This document shows, piece after piece, positions 2,989-20,884 of a DNA stretch of 21,224 bases. The position numbers and the translations under genes are program-made. The first letter of the stretch is position 1. Each line of letters starts with the position of its first letter. This stretch comes from a virus, in IMG/VR virus record IMGVR_UViG_3300033146_001130, positions 1 to 21,224 of that record, one strand, 5' to 3'. Under the pieces are notes generated by a model, which saw only the letters and a program-made list of their open reading frames with translations, searched no databases and was not told the DNA's origin.

Positions 2989-4389
2989 TTAACCATTTAT
3001 ACACATTGTTATATGTGAAACCAACAATGAAACAGGGGTAACAATGGCCAATAAAAGCCCAATGAAAAATCTAGCTGGCACAACTTCTCCATATCCATTT
3101 TGCAATTCTGCTTCAAGTTTATCTTTTTCTTTCTCACCTTGCACCATCAATTCATTGTAATTCAATGACCCACCACCAAATAATTGGATGGCACCATATT
3201 TACCTCTAATGTGGCCAATAGTCATCTTAGTCAGTGCAAGTGCATACTGATATATCCACCGCTCCATTATCAAATCCTTAACGGCCTTCTCAACAAAACA
3301 CCCAACAACACCATAATACCGACTTCCCTTATGTGGTGCTGGAATAATTCTCAATAATTGATTTCTTTCATCAAAATCAATATATTGTTTTTGTGCTAAC
3401 ATCTTTTCCCGCAAATCGAGCCACTGTTTCAATACTTCCCAAGTAACCAAATCAAAGCCCATATTACCAAGCATATAACTGAAATATGTTTGCTGTGCCA
3501 TGGCCTGTTCCAATGTGAACAATGTATTAACCCCACTAGTCTCGCCTTGTTGAAACTCAAATATCCCTATAACTCTTCTATAATCTCCCAAATCATAATC
3601 ATATGATCCCGAAAGGCCACTACTATTAGTTGCACGAATTGTTGGTGTCATACTAAACAACTCATCAATCCTCAACCCACCGTCTTCATACAAGTCAGAA
3701 TGAAATACTAAAAACTCTTCTGTAAAACCAGCATACTTGGTGTACCATTCAATACCCTGATCGATATTATCACAAATCTGAAAATCATCACAAATTTCTA
3801 AATTAATATACGGATGCCCAAGGGACATTTTAATTCTTTCAATAAGATCAGAATATGATTTAATTTTTGCATTTAAATTTGTAGAACCATTTCTTCTTTG
3901 TTTTATATCAACTGTAGGATCAACACGCAGTCTAGTAGTAACATCTGTAACAACTGGGGTAAATGTTTGCAAATCTGGATAAGACGTATCATAAGTATAT
4001 AATGGAATGCCATACATTTCATCATTAACTCTTGAAACAAAAAACTCACCAGTAGACCGTGCATTGGTAACAATGGTAGGGGTTTCTACAAATACCTGAA
4101 TACCATCATCAACACTTTTATCTGCATGGTATAATGGAACACATAATGCAGAATTTGCAACACTAAACGCCATAAACAGCCCGTAACTTTCCGCACCGTC
4201 TTCAATTGTTTGATTTTTAATAACTAAATCAGTCACTGGTGGAACCAAATCTATATTTGGAAATGATTGATTAAATGTATAAATTGGAAGTGACACATTG
4301 TTACCATTCAATCGAATTGTAACAAACCCGCTAGTAGACGTCGCACCCGTGATTAATGTCGAATTATCAAGATTATCTATATATTTCAT
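2989..4389 (-). CDS. Neck protein, T4 gp13-like, with extra N-terminal repeats and C-terminal hydrophobic tail
   Basis: Residues about 175-444 correspond to T4 gp13, which joins the portal vertex to the tail. LGHPYINLEI (190-199) matches gp13 LGAPIINVEL, and the C-terminal RWIYQYALALTK...GGGSLNYNELMVQGEKEKDKLEAEL matches gp13 RWVKDYATALAK...[25 protein letters not shown]. T4 gp13 is 309 residues; this one is 466. The extra N-terminal 150 residues contain three diverged beta repeats centred on LPIYT (34-38), VPLYH (84-88) and IPLYT (128-132). After the conserved end FFIG (441-444) there is a 22-residue, largely hydrophobic extension not seen in gp13. The ATG at 4389 has AAGG upstream; the gene follows the portal by 11 nt. 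Confidence 0.85.
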   Translation of the reverse strand: MKYIDNLDNSTLITGATSTSGFVTIRLNGNNVSLPIYTFNQSFPNIDLVPPVTDLVIKNQTIEDGAESYGLFMAFSVANSALCVPLYHADKSVDDGIQVFVETPTIVTNARSTGEFFVSRVNDEMYGIPLYTYDTSYPDLQTFTPVVTDVTTRLRVDPTVDIKQRRNGSTNLNAKIKSYSDLIERIKMSLGHPYINLEICDDFQICDNIDQGIEWYTKYAGFTEEFLVFHSDLYEDGGLRIDELFSMTPTIRATNSSGLSGSYDYDLGDYRRVIGIFEFQQGETSGVNTLFTLEQAMAQQTYFSYMLGNMGFDLVTWEVLKQWLDLREKMLAQKQYIDFDERNQLLRIIPAPHKGSRYYGVVGCFVEKAVKDLIMERWIYQYALALTKMTIGHIRGKYGAIQLFGGGSLNYNELMVQGEKEKDKLEAELQNGYGEVVPARFFIGLLLAIVTPVSLLVSHITMCING

Positions 4390-9715: not shown

Positions 9716-9723
9716 TATTTATA
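9716..9723 (-). promoter_or_regulatory. T4-late-type promoter box upstream of the helicase
   Basis: The minus strand reads TATAAATA, a perfect match to the T4 late consensus, in the gap between the Zn-ribbon gene and the helicase. Predicted start near 9710 gives a leader of about 12 nt that includes AGGA. The gap (9698-9766) holds nothing else recognisable. Confidence 0.55.
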
Positions 9724-9766: not shown

Positions 9767-10075
9767 TTAACTTAAAACACCAGCACTGTTAGCATTATGC
9801 CCTTTACTTAACATATACCGAGCAATTTCTTTATCAATATATTTAGACACACATTTTGTGCAAAGTGCATATTCATTATTTTTAATATTACGACCAACGT
9901 ACATACGACCAAAACACTGTTTGCATTGTATTGTTGCTGGGTCTTTTCCCAATGGTATGTCATTGACAGTAATAAACTTCATGAAATCTTCAATTTCTGA
10001 TTTATTAACCATGCTGGGCTTTTCAACACACCGAATCTCTCCAGATGAAATATTAAATATATACACTTTACTCAT
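9767..10075 (-). CDS. Zn-ribbon hypothetical protein, 102 residues
   Basis: Two CxxC pairs, Cys51/Cys54 (CKQC) and Cys72/Cys75 (CTKC), separated by 17 residues form a typical zinc ribbon. The N-terminal 45 residues look like a small beta-alpha segment, and the end is a helix (DKEIARYMLSKG). No specific family is recognised; phage proteins of this size with one ribbon are often DNA- or RNA polymerase-binding. The ATG at 10075 has AAAGGG upstream. It starts 2 nt after the end of the previous gene, so it is part of the 13074-9767 operon. Confidence 0.7.
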   Translation of the reverse strand: MSKVYIFNISSGEIRCVEKPSMVNKSEIEDFMKFITVNDIPLGKDPATIQCKQCFGRMYVGRNIKNNEYALCTKCVSKYIDKEIARYMLSKGHNANSAGVLS

Positions 10076-10077
10076 AA

Positions 10078-10410
10078 TTATTCCCTTTCAATATAATTGT
10101 CCAATACATCCTTTTTTGATATGTTGTACGCATTATCCACTATATTTCCAGACTTGTCAAGAGTATTATCTAATCTGTATGCCAAATCAAATTTATCGGT
10201 TCCAAGATCATTCGATGTTATTGTAGAAATAAGATGAACAACCATCCTATTTTTTAACTCATCAACGTCAGTAACAAACGGAACAAATAAACGCCCAATA
10301 TCATCACGAAATTTATCTAAAGCACTATGATACTCTTTTAGCACTTCTTCGCCCTTGCTGTTTACACTATCTTCACCGATTATACTGTTGGTGTATCTTT
10401 CAAAATCCAT
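10078..10410 (-). CDS. Hypothetical protein, 110 residues
   Basis: Not recognised. The ATG at 10410 has GAGG 6 nt upstream and overlaps the end of the preceding gene by 11 nt. The protein is mostly helical and acidic, with segments SALDKFRDDIGRLFVPFVTDVDELKNRMVVHLIST and a C-terminal ISKKDVLDNYIERE. No membrane segments, cysteines or catalytic motifs are visible. Its place in a tight operon next to replication-type genes suggests a small accessory factor. Confidence 0.65.
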   Translation of the reverse strand: MDFERYTNSIIGEDSVNSKGEEVLKEYHSALDKFRDDIGRLFVPFVTDVDELKNRMVVHLISTITSNDLGTDKFDLAYRLDNTLDKSGNIVDNAYNISKKDVLDNYIERE

Positions 10411-10762
10411 TTATTACCTCAATCTCAAGTATAGAATTGTAAAATTTATTAACACACTCATTTTCAACCAAACTGTTGACAATTTTTCCAACTTTAGTGT
10501 TTTTATTTTTAATAAAAGTATCAATTCTATAATCAAAGTACAAATACCCATCATCCCATCTCTCAATTGAGAACGGAATGGGAACTTCACACCGTTCCAT
10601 TTTCTTAGGAGTTTGAATATAAAATTCAATAAAATAATTATTCTGCTTAAACAATAAAAACTTACCACGTTTAAGCTTTTTATTGTTTATAGTCATTTTC
10701 ACTTCACGTTGAACCAACTCCAACAAAGTGTTCTCAATATTTGTATCAGATAAAACAATCAT
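10400..10762 (-). CDS. Hypothetical protein, 120 residues
   Basis: Not recognised. It is basic in the middle (NNKKLKRGKFLLFKQNN) and otherwise beta-rich with many aromatic residues (YFIEFYIQ, WDDGYLYFDYRID). No Shine-Dalgarno sequence precedes the ATG at 10762; instead GATAAATT lies exactly 5 nt upstream, a poor (6 of 8) late-box match at the same spacing as other SD-less genes here. A 35-nt gap separates it from the previous gene. The true start could also be the internal Met at residue 23. Confidence 0.6.
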   Translation of the reverse strand: MIVLSDTNIENTLLELVQREVKMTINNKKLKRGKFLLFKQNNYFIEFYIQTPKKMERCEVPIPFSIERWDDGYLYFDYRIDTFIKNKNTKVGKIVNSLVENECVNKFYNSILEIEVINGF

Positions 10763-10797
10763 ATAAAAATTTATCGCAAAAATTTAAAAGTCAATAC

Positions 10798-11181
10798 CTA
10801 TCTACTCATAAAGTCTATTTTCTCAGACGGCGACATTGATTGTAGATATATATTAAAATAATTCCAAAATATTTCAGGTGGGTTCACTGGAATCACTGTT
10901 ATAACCTTGCTTGTTTCGACTGAAATCATTCTCCAATCTTGCCAAAACAAATCCCACGTACACACCAAATTCCGAGATTTCCAATCATAAGCAGGAGAAT
11001 TCGTTGGTGGCTTAAAACGAAGTGCGGCCAACCCAGGAGCACTATTCAATATAGTGGCTGAATTGGTACACAACATTCTTCTTGAAGCTGGCCAGCCTTG
11101 CTTGGCTATCCGTCTATCAAATTTAACCTCTACAACATTTGTTTTTAAGGTTCGCATTAACCCAGCTTGTGACAGTTTCAT
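10798..11181 (-). CDS. SH3-barrel-like phage protein (DUF2693/WYL_2-like), 127 residues
   Basis: Residues about 28-100 contain SRRMLCTNSATILNS, LRFKPPTNSPAYDWKSRNLVCTWDLFWQDWRMISVE, a pattern I associate with the small phage family DUF2693 (WYL_2, Sm-like SH3 barrel): a tRRMxCT strand, then an LVxxWDxxxQDxRxI strand. The C-terminus adds NPPEIFWNYFNIYLQSMSPSEKIDFM, probably helical. Molecular function is not known to me. The ATG at 11181 has no Shine-Dalgarno sequence; AATAAATA lies exactly 5 nt upstream, overlapping the stop codon of the GroES-like gene. Confidence 0.65.
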   Translation of the reverse strand: MKLSQAGLMRTLKTNVVEVKFDRRIAKQGWPASRRMLCTNSATILNSAPGLAALRFKPPTNSPAYDWKSRNLVCTWDLFWQDWRMISVETSKVITVIPVNPPEIFWNYFNIYLQSMSPSEKIDFMSR

Positions 11182-11958: not shown

Positions 11959-12518
11959 TTAAACAACCGATACGTTTCTTTATTTATATTATTATTTATG
12001 TTATAAAAAGTTTTTACAACATCCCCCATAAAGTATTCCACCTTATCTTCTTCAAGAGTTAGGTCATACAAATTCATGTTTGATTTGATATTCAATATAA
12101 TATGACCTCTATAAAACATATCACAGTATTTACCCAAATTCAAGTTAATACACAAAGATTCTTCACTTGGAGATTCTGGCAAAACACTCATTGTAGAATT
12201 ATCGATATTAACACCACCACCCAAATATGCCCCCAAAATAGAACCAATATAATTAATAAAATATAGGTTAAACAATGTGGAATACTTTAACCCCACATCA
12301 GCCAGCATATATGAAAAATGAAGAGAATCACTCATAGTAATTTTCCCCTCACATTCAGTAACACAATACTTAGTGTATTCTTCATTTAAAAATGTTGGGC
12401 ACCTAAACGCCACAATACCACAATCCTTACTAATAACATTTGAAATTGCGGTATGTTCTATAACATTACACTTAAAAAACGACCCATCAAAAAAATCTTT
12501 ATTTATTATGTAATCCAT
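11955..12518 (-). CDS. Hypothetical protein, 187 residues
   Basis: Not recognised. The ATG at 12518 overlaps the end of the QueC-like gene by 20 nt. The N-terminal half is beta-rich with several cysteines (Cys residues in KCNV, DCGIVAFRCP, YCVTECEG), the middle has SLHFSYMLADVGLKYSTLFNLYFINYIGSILGAYLGGG, which is hydrophobic but probably a buried helix rather than a membrane anchor, and the C-terminus is acidic then Asn-rich. Translational coupling to the QueC-like gene hints at a shared process, but no reaction can be proposed. Confidence 0.65.
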   Translation of the reverse strand: MDYIINKDFFDGSFFKCNVIEHTAISNVISKDCGIVAFRCPTFLNEEYTKYCVTECEGKITMSDSLHFSYMLADVGLKYSTLFNLYFINYIGSILGAYLGGGVNIDNSTMSVLPESPSEESLCINLNLGKYCDMFYRGHIILNIKSNMNLYDLTLEEDKVEYFMGDVVKTFYNINNNINKETYRLFK

Positions 12519-13074
12519 CAATAAGCCCACTTTCAATTAATGATTTAATTATTTCATCCCTAGTTTTAAGAATATATGGTGTTGATACCTTCACGTCGTT
12601 GCAGTTTATGTTGTATGAAAAAATATCATCACCAGTATGTATGTCTCTACGGACAGAATCATGACCAAGTATAGTAGAACCCCGACCAGCCTGAATTGTA
12701 AATTCTAACAACCTGAAAAAATCCTCCCTACAATCCCTAGTTTCAAAATCATCACTGCAAACACCAAATACAATCTCATTTGCACCAAACCGTTCTGCAT
12801 AAATTGCACCATAAGTTCCAAATAACAAATTCTTTTGTATAATGACCTTACTGACACTCTTACTACTGCAATAACCCATTATCGGTATTTTAATATCCAT
12901 GGTAGAAATTTCATTATCGGATAAGAATTTTGCAGTCTCCTTCTCAAATACACATGCACCGCCAGTAGAATCATAAAAATTCACAGACAAAATATCTGAA
13001 CCAAATCTACTGTAGTACTCTTTCAAACACATTAATGACTTATATCCACCGCTGTTAAGAATAATTTTTTTCAT
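12499..13074 (-). CDS. QueC-like PP-loop ATPase, divergent and shortened, 191 residues
   Basis: QueC makes 7-cyano-7-deazaguanine (preQ0), used for tRNA queuosine and, in some phages, for 7-deazaguanine DNA modification. Seen here: the PP-loop NSGGYKS (residues 7-13), where SGGxDS is usual, so the conserved Asp is Lys; IVFGVCSDDFETRDCREDFF, close to the QueC DxxxYPDCRxEF substrate loop; and a C-terminal TRDEIIKSLIESG helix. The C-terminal CxxCxxC zinc site of QueC is absent; the protein ends at GLHNK. Other 7-deazaguanine genes (QueD, QueE, FolE, DpdA) are not in the window. It may have a different nucleotide-dependent activity. The ATG at 13074 has AAAGG upstream; an early-type promoter lies at 13119-13146. 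Confidence 0.7.
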   Translation of the reverse strand: MKKIILNSGGYKSLMCLKEYYSRFGSDILSVNFYDSTGGACVFEKETAKFLSDNEISTMDIKIPIMGYCSSKSVSKVIIQKNLLFGTYGAIYAERFGANEIVFGVCSDDFETRDCREDFFRLLEFTIQAGRGSTILGHDSVRRDIHTGDDIFSYNINCNDVKVSTPYILKTRDEIIKSLIESGLIDGLHNK

Positions 13075-13111
13075 TTTTTTACCTTTCATATATAACAATT
13101 ATCTTGATTTT

Positions 13112-17470: not shown

Positions 17471-17911
17471 TTAACCGTTCTGCTGAACCATGTTTGGGTT
17501 GTTAGTATTAGCACCTTGTGCAACATTAGTATTCTGCCCATTGACGGTAACATCATCAGCACTGCCTTGTTGAATCTGATTATAAATAGGCCTAAATTTC
17601 TTTGACTGCTGAACGGCTTGGTTGAACAGTTTGGCGACGCCATCAGGATTACCATCACTAGAAATACTATCTAAGGCATCTGCCAATGCTTGTGCTGGGT
17701 CTACCTGTTGCTGACCCTGTTGAGGTGCTTGTTGCTGTTCCTGCCCCTGTTGTTGCTGTTGAGGTGCTTGTTGCTGTTGTGGTGCCTGTTGCTGACCCTG
17801 TTGAGGTGCTTGTTGCTGTTGTGGTGCAACACCTTGCTGTGCTTGCTGTGAAAAACTAGCTTCATCCAGTGTGCCCAACTTATCACTAACCATTGATTCA
17901 AATTTTGACAT
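17471..17911 (-). CDS. Gln-rich protein with packaging-type leader, 146 residues
   Basis: The leader MSKFESMVSDKLGTLDE followed by A has an LxE|A site, the classic T4 prohead-protease pattern. Residues about 22-73 are nearly pure Gln with AP and G interruptions, a prion-like low-complexity tract; the coding DNA includes an exact 36-bp repeat. A short helical part follows (PAQALADALDSIS, VAKLFNQAVQQSKKFRPIYNQIQ; about 75-118), then an Asn/Gln-rich tail. If cleaved at residue 17, the packaged part would begin with the Gln tract. The ATG at 17911 has AAAGGAG upstream; AGTAAATA at 17950-17943 is a poor late-box candidate. Function unknown. Confidence 0.75.
   Translation of the reverse strand: MSKFESMVSDKLGTLDEASFSQQAQQGVAPQQQQAPQQGQQQAPQQQQAPQQQQQGQEQQQAPQQGQQQVDPAQALADALDSISSDGNPDGVAKLFNQAVQQSKKFRPIYNQIQQGSADDVTVNGQNTNVAQGANTNNPNMVQQNG
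17704..17820 (-). repeat. Exact 36-bp direct repeat inside the Gln-rich gene
   Basis: Positions 17704-17739 and 17785-17820 are identical over 36 bp, offset by 81 bp (27 codons, so frame is kept). Shorter partial copies of the CAA/CAG-rich unit fill the interval. The offset allows in-frame gain or loss of Gln units by recombination or slippage. Confidence 0.9.
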
Positions 17912-17954: not shown

Positions 17955-18500
17955 CTATACAATATATTTTAAATTATTTCCACTATTAAACAAATTTGAA
18001 TGGTGCAACAAACCGTTAGCATTCATAAATGCCTTTATGCGTTTAAAATTGCGAGTACCCCTAGACCTAACACGGCTTGAAGTATATAAACTGTATAACT
18101 CTTTCAAATAACCATAGTCATCAGAACGTTCCATATCAATGTTCATAGTATAAAACATTCGCAGTTTACCAATTTTACCCATTATGCAGTTAAAAACACC
18201 AGCCAGTTCATCCTTGTCAAAAAATTCATATAACTCGCCGTTATATTTTGACATGAAACCACTAACATAAACAACATTGCGAGAAAACTTCCCACACGTC
18301 ATAGACATTAAGTAATTCACAACTTCATGCATGATGATCTTCTTACAGTCTGCATCTAGTTTTGATCTTGGCATGGCCAAGTCCTTATATTGAAAAATAT
18401 GATTGAGTATTCCAACATCACATTGTCTTAAAATCTCATAATCATATATCAAAAAAGTGTGGGTGTTATGTGATTTAATGAAAGATGCTATGTTATTCAT
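17955..18500 (-). CDS. Hypothetical protein, 181 residues, under an apparent early/late switch
   Basis: Not recognised. The N-terminal part is alternating helix and strand (THTFLIYDYEILRQCDVGILNHIF), followed by CKKIIMHEVVNYLMSMTCGKF, a strand NVVYVSGFM, and a basic segment SSRVRSRGTRNFKRIKAFMNANG near the C-terminus that could contact nucleic acid. The ATG at 18500 lacks a Shine-Dalgarno sequence. A perfect late box TATAAATA ends 5 nt before it, and a 6-bp hairpin covers the start codon. Upstream lies the 335-base non-coding region with its own sigma70-type promoter, so the gene probably has two transcripts: an early one with a long leader and a late leaderless one. Confidence 0.75.
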   Translation of the reverse strand: MNNIASFIKSHNTHTFLIYDYEILRQCDVGILNHIFQYKDLAMPRSKLDADCKKIIMHEVVNYLMSMTCGKFSRNVVYVSGFMSKYNGELYEFFDKDELAGVFNCIMGKIGKLRMFYTMNIDMERSDDYGYLKELYSLYTSSRVRSRGTRNFKRIKAFMNANGLLHHSNLFNSGNNLKYIV

Positions 18501-18517
18501 GCTAATATTTATAGCAT
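18499..18517 (-). promoter_or_regulatory. Start-codon hairpin with embedded perfect late promoter
   Basis: On the minus strand ATGCTA (18517-18512) pairs with TAGCAT (18504-18499); the last two bases of the 3' arm are the first two of the start codon. TATAAATA (18513-18506) lies across the 5' arm and the 7-nt loop, and is followed by TTAGC then ATG. A T4-type late start would fall on the A of the ATG and remove the 5' arm. The arrangement matches that before the gp15-like gene. Confidence 0.6.
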
Positions 18518-18595
18518 ATCGACAGTATTATTCAACCTTTTTTTTGAAGATGTTTACCACCAACACTTTAATGATTTTCTCAATTTTTTTAGTCA

Positions 18596-18683
18596 AAATT
18601 TTTTATTTTTTCCAAAATGATTTTATTTTTTTATTTGCTGTTTTTTATTTAATTTGCCCCAAATTTTTTATTTTTTTCCAAAA
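18596..18683. repeat. Two near-identical A/T-tract repeats
   Basis: Positions 18596-18617 (22 bp) and 18661-18683 (23 bp) differ only by one extra T in a T-run; the plus strand of each reads AAA, T6, A, T6-7, CCAAAA. Further T-runs lie between them. Such tracts would curve or easily unwind DNA. Confidence 0.75.
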
Positions 18684-18763
18684 ACTTTTATTTAAATTGT
18701 CGTTGAAAAAATTTTGACATGTTATTTATTTATATTTATGTTATTAATATTATATATATTATT

Positions 18764-18779
18764 CCCACCCACCCACCCC
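18764..18779 (-). other. G-quadruplex motif with single-base loops
   Basis: The minus strand reads GGGGTGGGTGGGTGGG, four G-runs separated by single T residues, the topology known to give very stable parallel quadruplexes in DNA and RNA. It stands out in this AT-rich window. It lies immediately downstream of the -10 element of a sigma70-type promoter, so the RNA would start with it. Confidence 0.85.
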
Positions 18780-18783
18780 ATAT

Positions 18784-18811
18784 ATTTTAATAAGAATTTT
18801 GGAAATGTCAA
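18784..18811 (-). promoter_or_regulatory. Sigma70-type promoter whose transcript starts in the G-quadruplex motif
   Basis: On the minus strand a perfect TTGACA (18811-18806), a 16-nt spacer and TAAAAT (18789-18784; 5 of 6). A start 7 nt past the -10 falls near 18777, in the first G-run. The transcript would lead into the 181-residue gene through about 277 nt of leader. Confidence 0.6.
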
Positions 18812-18835
18812 TAGGTGAACTTAAAATAAATCAAA

Positions 18836-19402
18836 TTATTTTTTCAATATCTCAATCATGTTTTTATAAAGGATATTATCAACATCAGTATTTTCATCAC
18901 AACGATACTCATTTATAAGATCAAACAACTCATTCAAAATAACATTAGACTTTAATTCAAACAGTTTATTATTTTCAATGTTGATCAAACTATTATCAGA
19001 TTTGGTGTTCATTGAGTTTGCAGTTTCAAGTAATGCAATATCACTAATGAAATCTAATTTATTTTCACCAAGAAGTTTTTTAATCTTGTGGATGAATTTA
19101 TCAATGTTACTATTTTGATTATAGTTCTCACTAAAGAATTTATTGATCAATAGAGATGCCACAACATTCTTGTGAAATGATTCTTTGGCCATTTGATTAT
19201 ATTCAACACCATGAACATGAACTTTAGCAAATGGATTATAAATACACCCATTGCCAAATGCAGTACTTCCACAGTAGATACAACGTTTAGGGTCATCTGC
19301 ATGTACATGAAACTTGTGTGGTGAGTAAATACACCCTCTTCCATATGCCTCTGCGTTACAGTACATGCATTTGCTATTACGATTGGTTCCTAAAATTTTC
19401 AT
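18836..19402 (-). CDS. Protein with tandem Cys3-His modules, 188 residues
   Basis: Two copies of one module follow each other with a period of 29 residues: CMYCNAEAYGRGCIYSP...HVH (Cys12, Cys15, Cys24, His32, His34) and CIYCGSTAFGNGCIYNP...HVH (Cys41, Cys44, Cys53, His62, His64). The consensus CxYCxxxAxGxGCIYxP(x)nHVH looks like a compact zinc-binding unit; I recall similar single or repeated motifs in bacterial proteins of unknown function but cannot name a family. The rest (about 70-188) is helical with Asn/Lys/Leu-rich segments (NIDKFIHKIKKLLGENKLDFISDIALLETA). The ATG at 19402 overlaps the nuclease stop as TAATG, indicating coupling, so a nucleic-acid-related role is likely but inferred. 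Confidence 0.72.
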   Translation of the reverse strand: MKILGTNRNSKCMYCNAEAYGRGCIYSPHKFHVHADDPKRCIYCGSTAFGNGCIYNPFAKVHVHGVEYNQMAKESFHKNVVASLLINKFFSENYNQNSNIDKFIHKIKKLLGENKLDFISDIALLETANSMNTKSDNSLINIENNKLFELKSNVILNELFDLINEYRCDENTDVDNILYKNMIEILKK

Positions 19403-20413: not shown

Positions 20414-20441
20414 TTGACTTCGCTTTATAAGTATTTATAAT
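20414..20441 (+). promoter_or_regulatory. Sigma70-type promoter facing uvsY
   Basis: On the plus strand TTGACT (20414-20419), 16 nt, and a perfect TATAAT (20436-20441). Predicted start near 20448 gives a leader of about 29 nt with AAGG before the uvsY ATG. It overlaps the oppositely directed late box at 20432-20439, so the two could compete. Confidence 0.65.
20432..20439 (-). promoter_or_regulatory. T4-late-type promoter for the nuclease unit
   Basis: The minus strand reads TATAAATA, a perfect late consensus, giving a leader of about 20 nt that contains AAGGA before the ATG at 20405. It is within a small inverted repeat (TTATAA, 4 nt, TTATAA; 20425-20440). Confidence 0.6.
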
Positions 20442-20476: not shown

Positions 20477-20884
20477 ATGTCAAAAACAATTGAAATGATG
20501 GACACTTATGGTGGCGAATTTAAGGAAGAAATGGTGTTTGATGAATTCCATATACATGAATTGATGCAAAAGCTTCCAGTAATAAATCACAAGTGGGTTG
20601 CTAGAATGATTCGGTATAAAGATGACCTGAATAAAATAAAAAGATTGAAAGAGGGTAAAAAGAAAGAATTATACGAATATTATAAATCAACACAGATTGT
20701 TAATATGTCGGATGCCGCATTATATCGGAAAATTGACGCTTGTGATGATATAAAAAAAATAAATCGGGTTATGGAAGATACTAAACTTATGATTGAATAT
20801 CTATCTGGGATTGTTGATATTTGTAGACGGTCTGGTTATGACGTTAAGAACATTATTGAATGGATTAAATTAGAGACAACATGA
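20477..20884 (+). CDS. uvsY: Recombination mediator, T4 UvsY-like, 135 residues
   Basis: T4 UvsY (137 residues) loads the recombinase UvsX on single-stranded DNA coated with gp32. The same layout is seen: KWVARMIRYKDDLNKIKRLKEGKKKELYEYY (39-69, cf. UvsY KWLNKHSSIKKEMLRIEAQKKVALKARLDYY), an acidic DACDDIKKIN segment, and the C-terminal IVDICRRSGYDVKNIIEWIKLE (cf. LDAIKSRGFAIKHIQDM). Length and C-terminal helix fit well. Driven by the sigma70-type promoter at 20414-20441, so probably expressed early or middle. Its stop overlaps the next ATG (ATGA), coupling it to the uvsW-like gene. Confidence 0.8.
   Translation: MSKTIEMMDTYGGEFKEEMVFDEFHIHELMQKLPVINHKWVARMIRYKDDLNKIKRLKEGKKKELYEYYKSTQIVNMSDAALYRKIDACDDIKKINRVMEDTKLMIEYLSGIVDICRRSGYDVKNIIEWIKLETT

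Follow-up and report, generated by a model that had tools for sequence, protein, structure and literature searches.

The locus and its phage

The window analyzed here, a stretch of 21,224 nucleotides, is a 21-kb viral contig that represents a fragment of an uncultured T4-like phage. It carries a T4-like gene set (portal, tail sheath stabiliser, DnaG-like primase, helicase, PDDEXK nuclease and uvsY), and the top match of its portal among cultured phages shows about 30% identity. The site described here is found within an intergenic region of 335 nt (18501-18835) located between two genes of the minus strand. The features of this region, together with uvsY, are listed below in the order in which the minus strand is read.

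20477..20884, plus strand: uvsY, recombination mediator (Pfam PF11056, 5.8e-09; PHROG 231, 3.4e-12)
18836..19402, minus strand: upstream gene of 188 aa, conserved across the phage family, whose product has two zinc-knuckle-like repeats of the CxxC type
18806..18811, minus strand: -35 element TTGACA, by direct reading (the family homologues all have TTGAC(A/T))
18790-18805, minus strand: spacer of 16 nt, which shares TTTCCA-AAT with the promoter of the related contig L265
18784..18789, minus strand: -10 element TAAAAT, by direct reading
18780-18783, minus strand: ATAT between the -10 and the G-runs, by direct reading
18764..18779, minus strand: GGGGTGGGTGGGTGGG on the non-template strand, with four G-runs separated by single-T loops, by direct reading and motif scan
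18501..18763, minus strand: A+T-rich leader and possible DNA-unwinding element, with a GC content of 0.11 in the first 100 nt
18576..18693, no strand assigned: two imperfect A/T-rich direct repeats of 53 nt within the leader
18513-18506, minus strand: TATAAATA, late-promoter-like, just before the ATG of the 181-aa gene
17955..18500, minus strand: downstream gene, 181 aa, an open reading frame

The minus strand, when read directly, gives TTGACA-N16-TAAAAT-N4-GGGGTGGGTGGGTGGG, and both the spacing and the coordinates given for these elements in the preliminary description were exact. The promoter scores 11/12 against the consensus, and only one of the 118 promoter-like sites in the scanned part of the window scores higher. 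GGGGTGGGTGGGTGGG is the sole motif of four G-runs (three or more G each) on both strands of the window. A G-run motif placed four nucleotides past TAWAAT was found in none of 100 dinucleotide shuffles, and three units of GGGN followed by GGG are expected from base composition about 1.4e-4 times per window, a figure that understates chance through its assumption of independence, since the motif is a tandem GGGT repeat. From spacing alone, the predicted start of transcription is position 18777 (range 18775-18779), the third G, 7 nt past the -10. The RNA would then begin GGUGGGUGGGUGGG, with its first G-run shortened, and four full G3 runs in the RNA require a start at 18778 or 18779. An RNA with a quadruplex at its 5' end had been proposed for this promoter; the predicted start does lie inside the first G-run, but that run is cut short.

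The nearest gene of the minus strand begins 263 nt downstream of the G-runs. The leader in between is the least stable stretch of the window, both at 100 and at 200 nt. As a control we considered other intergenic DNA in these phages, which is likewise A+T-rich, so that an A+T-rich unwinding element is weak as specific proof of an origin. The fold of the leader RNA was not notable (z-score -0.90), and the leader gave no Rfam match and no tRNA. The motif TATAAATA, the -10 of T4 late promoters, is found in the window at 9723, 11988, 18513 and 18734, always on the minus strand. Three of these copies are a short distance ahead of a gene and one is in the leader, past the G-cluster; in L265 it comes immediately after the G-cluster. 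The 188-aa zinc-knuckle-like protein is present in more than 100 viral contigs and has no Pfam or PHROG match. In 73 nonredundant relatives the gene next to the zinc-knuckle gene is mostly at a distance of about 100 nt or less, and the intergenic region of the site is missing, indicating that the intergenic region of the window is a lineage-specific addition. The uvsY gene of the window is located 1.7 kb from the promoter, on the opposite strand, and two other genes flank the promoter module, so that here the link to uvsY is indirect.

A search for the locus at the DNA level in cultured phages gave no matches. The nearest contigs (L002-L005 and L090, with identities of 68-74% for the portal and 68% for the zinc-knuckle gene) stop short of the site, and no close relative of the exact locus was found when the two proteins flanking it were each searched alone. 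The GC skew of the window was discarded as a signal of an origin, as it makes no clear turn at the site. Two other sites of the window are strongly promoter-like and have no G-run, TTGACT-N16-TATAAT at 20414-20441 (plus strand), just upstream of uvsY, and TTGACT-N16-TAAAAT at 13146-13119 (minus strand), just upstream of a QueC-like gene; both look like ordinary early promoters of the phage. The QueC-like gene (PHROG 1550, 12499-13098) hints at a 7-deazaguanine modification of the phage DNA, which would alter the formation of G-quadruplexes. Finally, a 146-aa ORF contains, at 17704-17827, imperfect tandem repeats of 39-42 nt coding for a Q/P-rich stretch.

Promoters with a G-cluster in the phage family

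We have gathered about 240 loci of the phage family. One relative, L254/L265, was recovered from viral contigs with the loose pattern TTGANN-N15-18-TANNNT-N2-9-(GGGN)3GGG and belongs to the same family, with homologues of uvsY, the nuclease, the zinc-knuckle gene, the kinase and the primase. When all the family loci were scanned for promoters, the same design appeared also in L173, L181, L174 and L209/L031. Five distinct relatives (35-50% protein identity) therefore carry consensus promoters with a G-cluster, of the form TTGAC(A/T)-N16/17-TAnnnT-N3-6-G-cluster. All are placed in the divergent gap that directly precedes uvsY, and this gap is enlarged in the carriers (225-331 nt). L173, L181 and L209/L031 have two G-cluster promoters each, in tandem, while L174 and L265 have a single one; L174 has a second promoter (the upstream copy) free of G-runs. 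The promoters of the relatives point away from uvsY and toward the nuclease and zinc-knuckle genes, and that of the window has the same direction. About 90 other uvsY flanks had neither the consensus promoter nor the G-cluster, and since both parts are missing together, promoter and G-cluster appear to be gained or lost as one unit. The spacers of the window and L265 promoters are identical at 10 of 16 positions (shuffle p 0.0035, one of eight comparisons).

The G-cluster is on the non-template strand in every case, and the distance between the -35 and its first G is 25-28 nt in the window and in each of the eight cluster promoters. In each of the eight, 10 or more of 16 consecutive nucleotides just past the -10 are G, as against one of the 2,590 other promoter-like sites of the family (the C-rich mirror was also found once). 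These eight promoters were chosen by their cluster, so that the fair figure is 8/9, counting the upstream promoter of L174. The preliminary description had looked to related phages for G-runs kept at the start site, and they are indeed kept, in a fixed register to the -10, with the exception of this upstream copy. Over three carrier contigs (183 kb), non-genic G-clusters were confined to the locus, except for one at a contig end and another at G316:51893. In addition, the 100 nt that follow the cluster of the main copy are A+T-rich and rank among the least stable 1% of the sequence in every carrier.

Two descriptions of this distribution were rejected. A start on a G-run is not a general promoter feature of these phages, as the other TTGAC promoters of the three carrier contigs have no G-run. 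Neither do the carriers form a single clade: three changes are required on the kinase tree, where L173, L174, L181 and L209 group together and L265 and the window are placed apart, the window on a long branch. Among the loci gathered, we also observed that the portal homologue of L007 is in two pieces (10001-11149 and 12371-13069), 1.2 kb apart, with about 5 kb between it and its usual upstream neighbour. This suggests that the split reflects an inserted intron or homing gene.

The G-runs themselves differ among the promoters. Four G3 runs with one-base loops are found in the window and in L265 only, and the runs of the remaining relatives follow other arrangements, e.g., 4-6-3 or 3-2-2-3. In seven of the nine family promoters the predicted RNA lacks four G3 runs, even allowing one lost base. 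The full set is predicted in L265 alone and nearly so in the window; the RNAs of the others would hold one or two G3 runs, because the +1 falls inside the first run. This bears on the proposal of a protective RNA cap, in which a 5' quadruplex of the nascent RNA would guard it from 5'-dependent decay, or else control translation or pausing. A start at 18778 or 18779 would give an RNA with four full runs in the window, the RNA of L265 keeps its four G3 runs and the long leader (263 nt in the window) is compatible with such a role. On the other hand, a start at the usual +1 would deprive most RNAs of their first G-run, those of the other carriers are left with one or two runs, the cluster starts upstream of the predicted +1, which is needless for a function in RNA, and RNA motifs of the GG type mostly do not fold intramolecularly (PMC11602125). 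The cap is disfavoured by these data, and we consider it improbable. What these promoters conserve is a G-cluster on the non-template strand, kept in register to the -10 and the predicted +1, and not a perfect quadruplex.

A G-rich stretch at +1 could also act as an operator, where a protein of the phage or of its host would bind and shut down the early promoter. Its place over the +1 would be ideal for a repressor, and the module is often in tandem, but the core varies in length, loops and number of runs, which is atypical of a protein operator, and the same design is found in unrelated viruses (see below). The operator appears to us quite improbable.

The design in other viruses and in known systems

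The loose pattern gave 22 matches in viral contigs, which fall into 15 groups. The fifth base of the -35, free in the pattern, was a C in 13 of the 15 groups (p about 1e-6) and the spacer was of 17 nt in 11 of them, so that most of these matches look like real promoters. They include unrelated viruses that differ in GC content; each genome has one or two copies of the design, and the reversed pattern was not found in these viruses. It had been stated that no phage leader of such a design was known, which no longer holds given its recurrence in relatives and in other viruses. The DNA downstream is A+T-rich in some of the unrelated viruses (L264, L259) and not in most. In two of them (L248, 4565; L256, 7972, plus strand) a strong hairpin is located within about 10 nt of the promoter that starts in a G4, which suggests that the RNA would be very short and have a quadruplex at its 5' end. 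With a strict TAAAAT plus G4 pattern there was one unrelated match in the viral contigs, L088, which was rejected as not being a promoter arrangement; there GGGTGGGTGGGTGGG follows TAAAAT (4309-4334, minus strand) in intergenic DNA with G/C-rich hairpins. The design was not frequent in bacteria, as in 299 genomes of one phylum, that of the seed genome, the seed genome alone matched, and a strict genome scan gave two poly-G matches only.

These comparisons leave little room for chance, i.e., for a GGGT microsatellite that arose by slippage and happens to follow a promoter-like sequence. It is true that in the window a tetranucleotide is repeated perfectly and that A+T-rich DNA gives many promoter-like sites. 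Against this, the shuffles gave no match, 8/9 promoters of the uvsY gap have G-clusters with different loops, the free positions in the viral search match the promoter consensus, and in E. coli (G3T)n repeats are prone to deletion when transcription runs through them in this orientation (PMC7603069). The different loops of the relatives indicate that GGGGTGGGTGGGTGGG is not merely the product of slippage, and such an origin, already made unlikely, is in our opinion very remote. We are dealing with a conserved promoter type that is probably functional.

The closest tested precedent is the G4 promoter of pilE in Neisseria gonorrhoeae, where a sigma70-type promoter lies beside a G4 and gives an sRNA that starts within it (5' RACE) and is needed for pilin variation (PMC3547852). 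An RNA-DNA hybrid on the C-rich strand has been proposed to let the G-strand fold, acting in cis (PMC3547852). The module described here is alike by its anatomy: in the window a sigma70-type promoter adjoins the G4, the G-strand is the non-template one, the predicted start is within the G4 and, in the relatives, uvsY provides a context of recombination. The pilE element is found in a bacterial chromosome and drives gene conversion of pilin with a non-coding RNA of low abundance. Unlike it, the present module belongs to phages, is located beside uvsY in the relatives, has an A+T-rich leader before genes and is described from its sequence.

A second comparison is with phage T4 itself. Its origins oriF and oriG each combine a promoter with an A+T-rich unwinding element, where the transcript forms an R-loop that primes synthesis (PMC3016281). 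The oriF annotation of the T4 record is placed at the start of uvsY. The resemblance to oriF, or ori(uvsY), includes the T4-like phage and the promoter followed by an A+T-rich element. In the five relatives the module adjoins uvsY; in the window it is 1.7 kb away, and its direction is the reverse of that in T4. The promoters are different, since oriF and oriG have a MotA middle promoter (oriE has an early one) and the window and its relatives a consensus -35, TTGACA/T. Besides, oriF transcribes uvsY and has no G-cluster, while the present module points away from uvsY and has a G-cluster at the predicted +1. In ColE1 RNA II and in the mitochondrial CSB II, replication is primed from a persistent hybrid that involves a G-rich RNA; the G-rich stretch is there inside the transcript, and here at the predicted +1. 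Priming by transcripts is mentioned in PMC3016281. Templates engineered with a non-template PQS (PMC7341879) or with (G3T)n (PMC7603069) likewise have G-runs just past the start, and the (G3T)4 unit is identical, but the present module is natural and conserved in its register to the -10.

Proposed R-loop seeding and a possible replication origin

There is prior evidence of what a G-cluster in this position can do. G clusters start R-loops (PMC6442632), and a quadruplex motif (PQS) on the non-template strand downstream of the +1 stabilises them and raises RNA output via successive R-loops (PMC7341879). The d(G3T)4 unit folds as a parallel quadruplex, and (G3T)n transcribed as the non-template strand forms a DNA G4 in E. 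coli (PMC7603069). Together with the conserved non-template G-cluster, this literature favours the seeding of an R-loop in the DNA over an RNA cap, and among the functions first proposed the R-loop nucleator is the one that we infer. The best explanation overall, to which we give about an even chance of being right, is that the module seeds an R-loop at the non-template G-cluster, leading either to an origin or to boosted transcription.

The events could be as follows. A host sigma70-type (early) promoter would set the +1 inside the non-template G-cluster, and the first G-rich nucleotides of the RNA would pair strongly with the C-rich template as the RNA polymerase starts. The displaced G-strand would fold in vivo (for the window, into a (GGGT)4 quadruplex), and both the pairing of RNA and template and the folded G-strand would keep the R-loop open right where transcription begins. 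The A+T-rich leader would allow the R-loop to extend, and the leader RNA would then become the leading-strand primer of a T4-type origin.

Regarding the output, the anatomy similar to that of T4 ori(uvsY) leads us to prefer, tentatively, a T4-type R-loop replication origin primed on the leading strand by the leader RNA, which we regard as a possibility well short of probable. As in the T4 origins, the promoter is followed by an A+T-rich element, a weak test given that intergenic DNA is generally A+T-rich here, and against an origin there are no G-runs further downstream that could sustain a long R-loop. The distance from uvsY in the window, the direction opposite to that of T4 and the absence of G-runs from T4 oriF also weaken the case for an origin, as does the DNA downstream of the design in unrelated viruses, which is often not A+T-rich. 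In the other output of R-loop seeding, the genes downstream would be transcribed more strongly or repeatedly, and this we hold to be rather unlikely.

The main rival has no replication role at all: short cycles of R-loop and G4 at the non-template G-cluster would simply speed up escape or re-initiation at a strong early promoter. The increase of RNA output by a non-template PQS downstream of the +1 (PMC7341879) speaks for it, as do the unrelated viruses that have the design without an A+T-rich stretch downstream and the position of the promoters, ahead of genes that share their direction. A general booster would be expected at other promoters of the same phages too, and these have no G-cluster; the low copy number (one or two per genome) and, in the relatives, the place beside uvsY suggest rather a special locus. 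We consider that this booster is unlikely, without being far-fetched.

Returning to the preferred reading, R-loop seeding with an origin as its output, these uncultured T4-like phages may have a new class of origin, in which an early promoter starting in a non-template G4 or G-cluster would give a persistent R-loop that primes the first round of replication near uvsY, and unrelated viruses may have arrived at the same trick. We put this forward as a speculative proposal, which could well be wrong. The G-clusters come and go with the promoter-plus-leader module at the uvsY locus, a natural rule that can be tested, and the pilE-type promoter that starts inside a quadruplex is no oddity of Neisseria, since, judged by its anatomy, it recurs in viruses.
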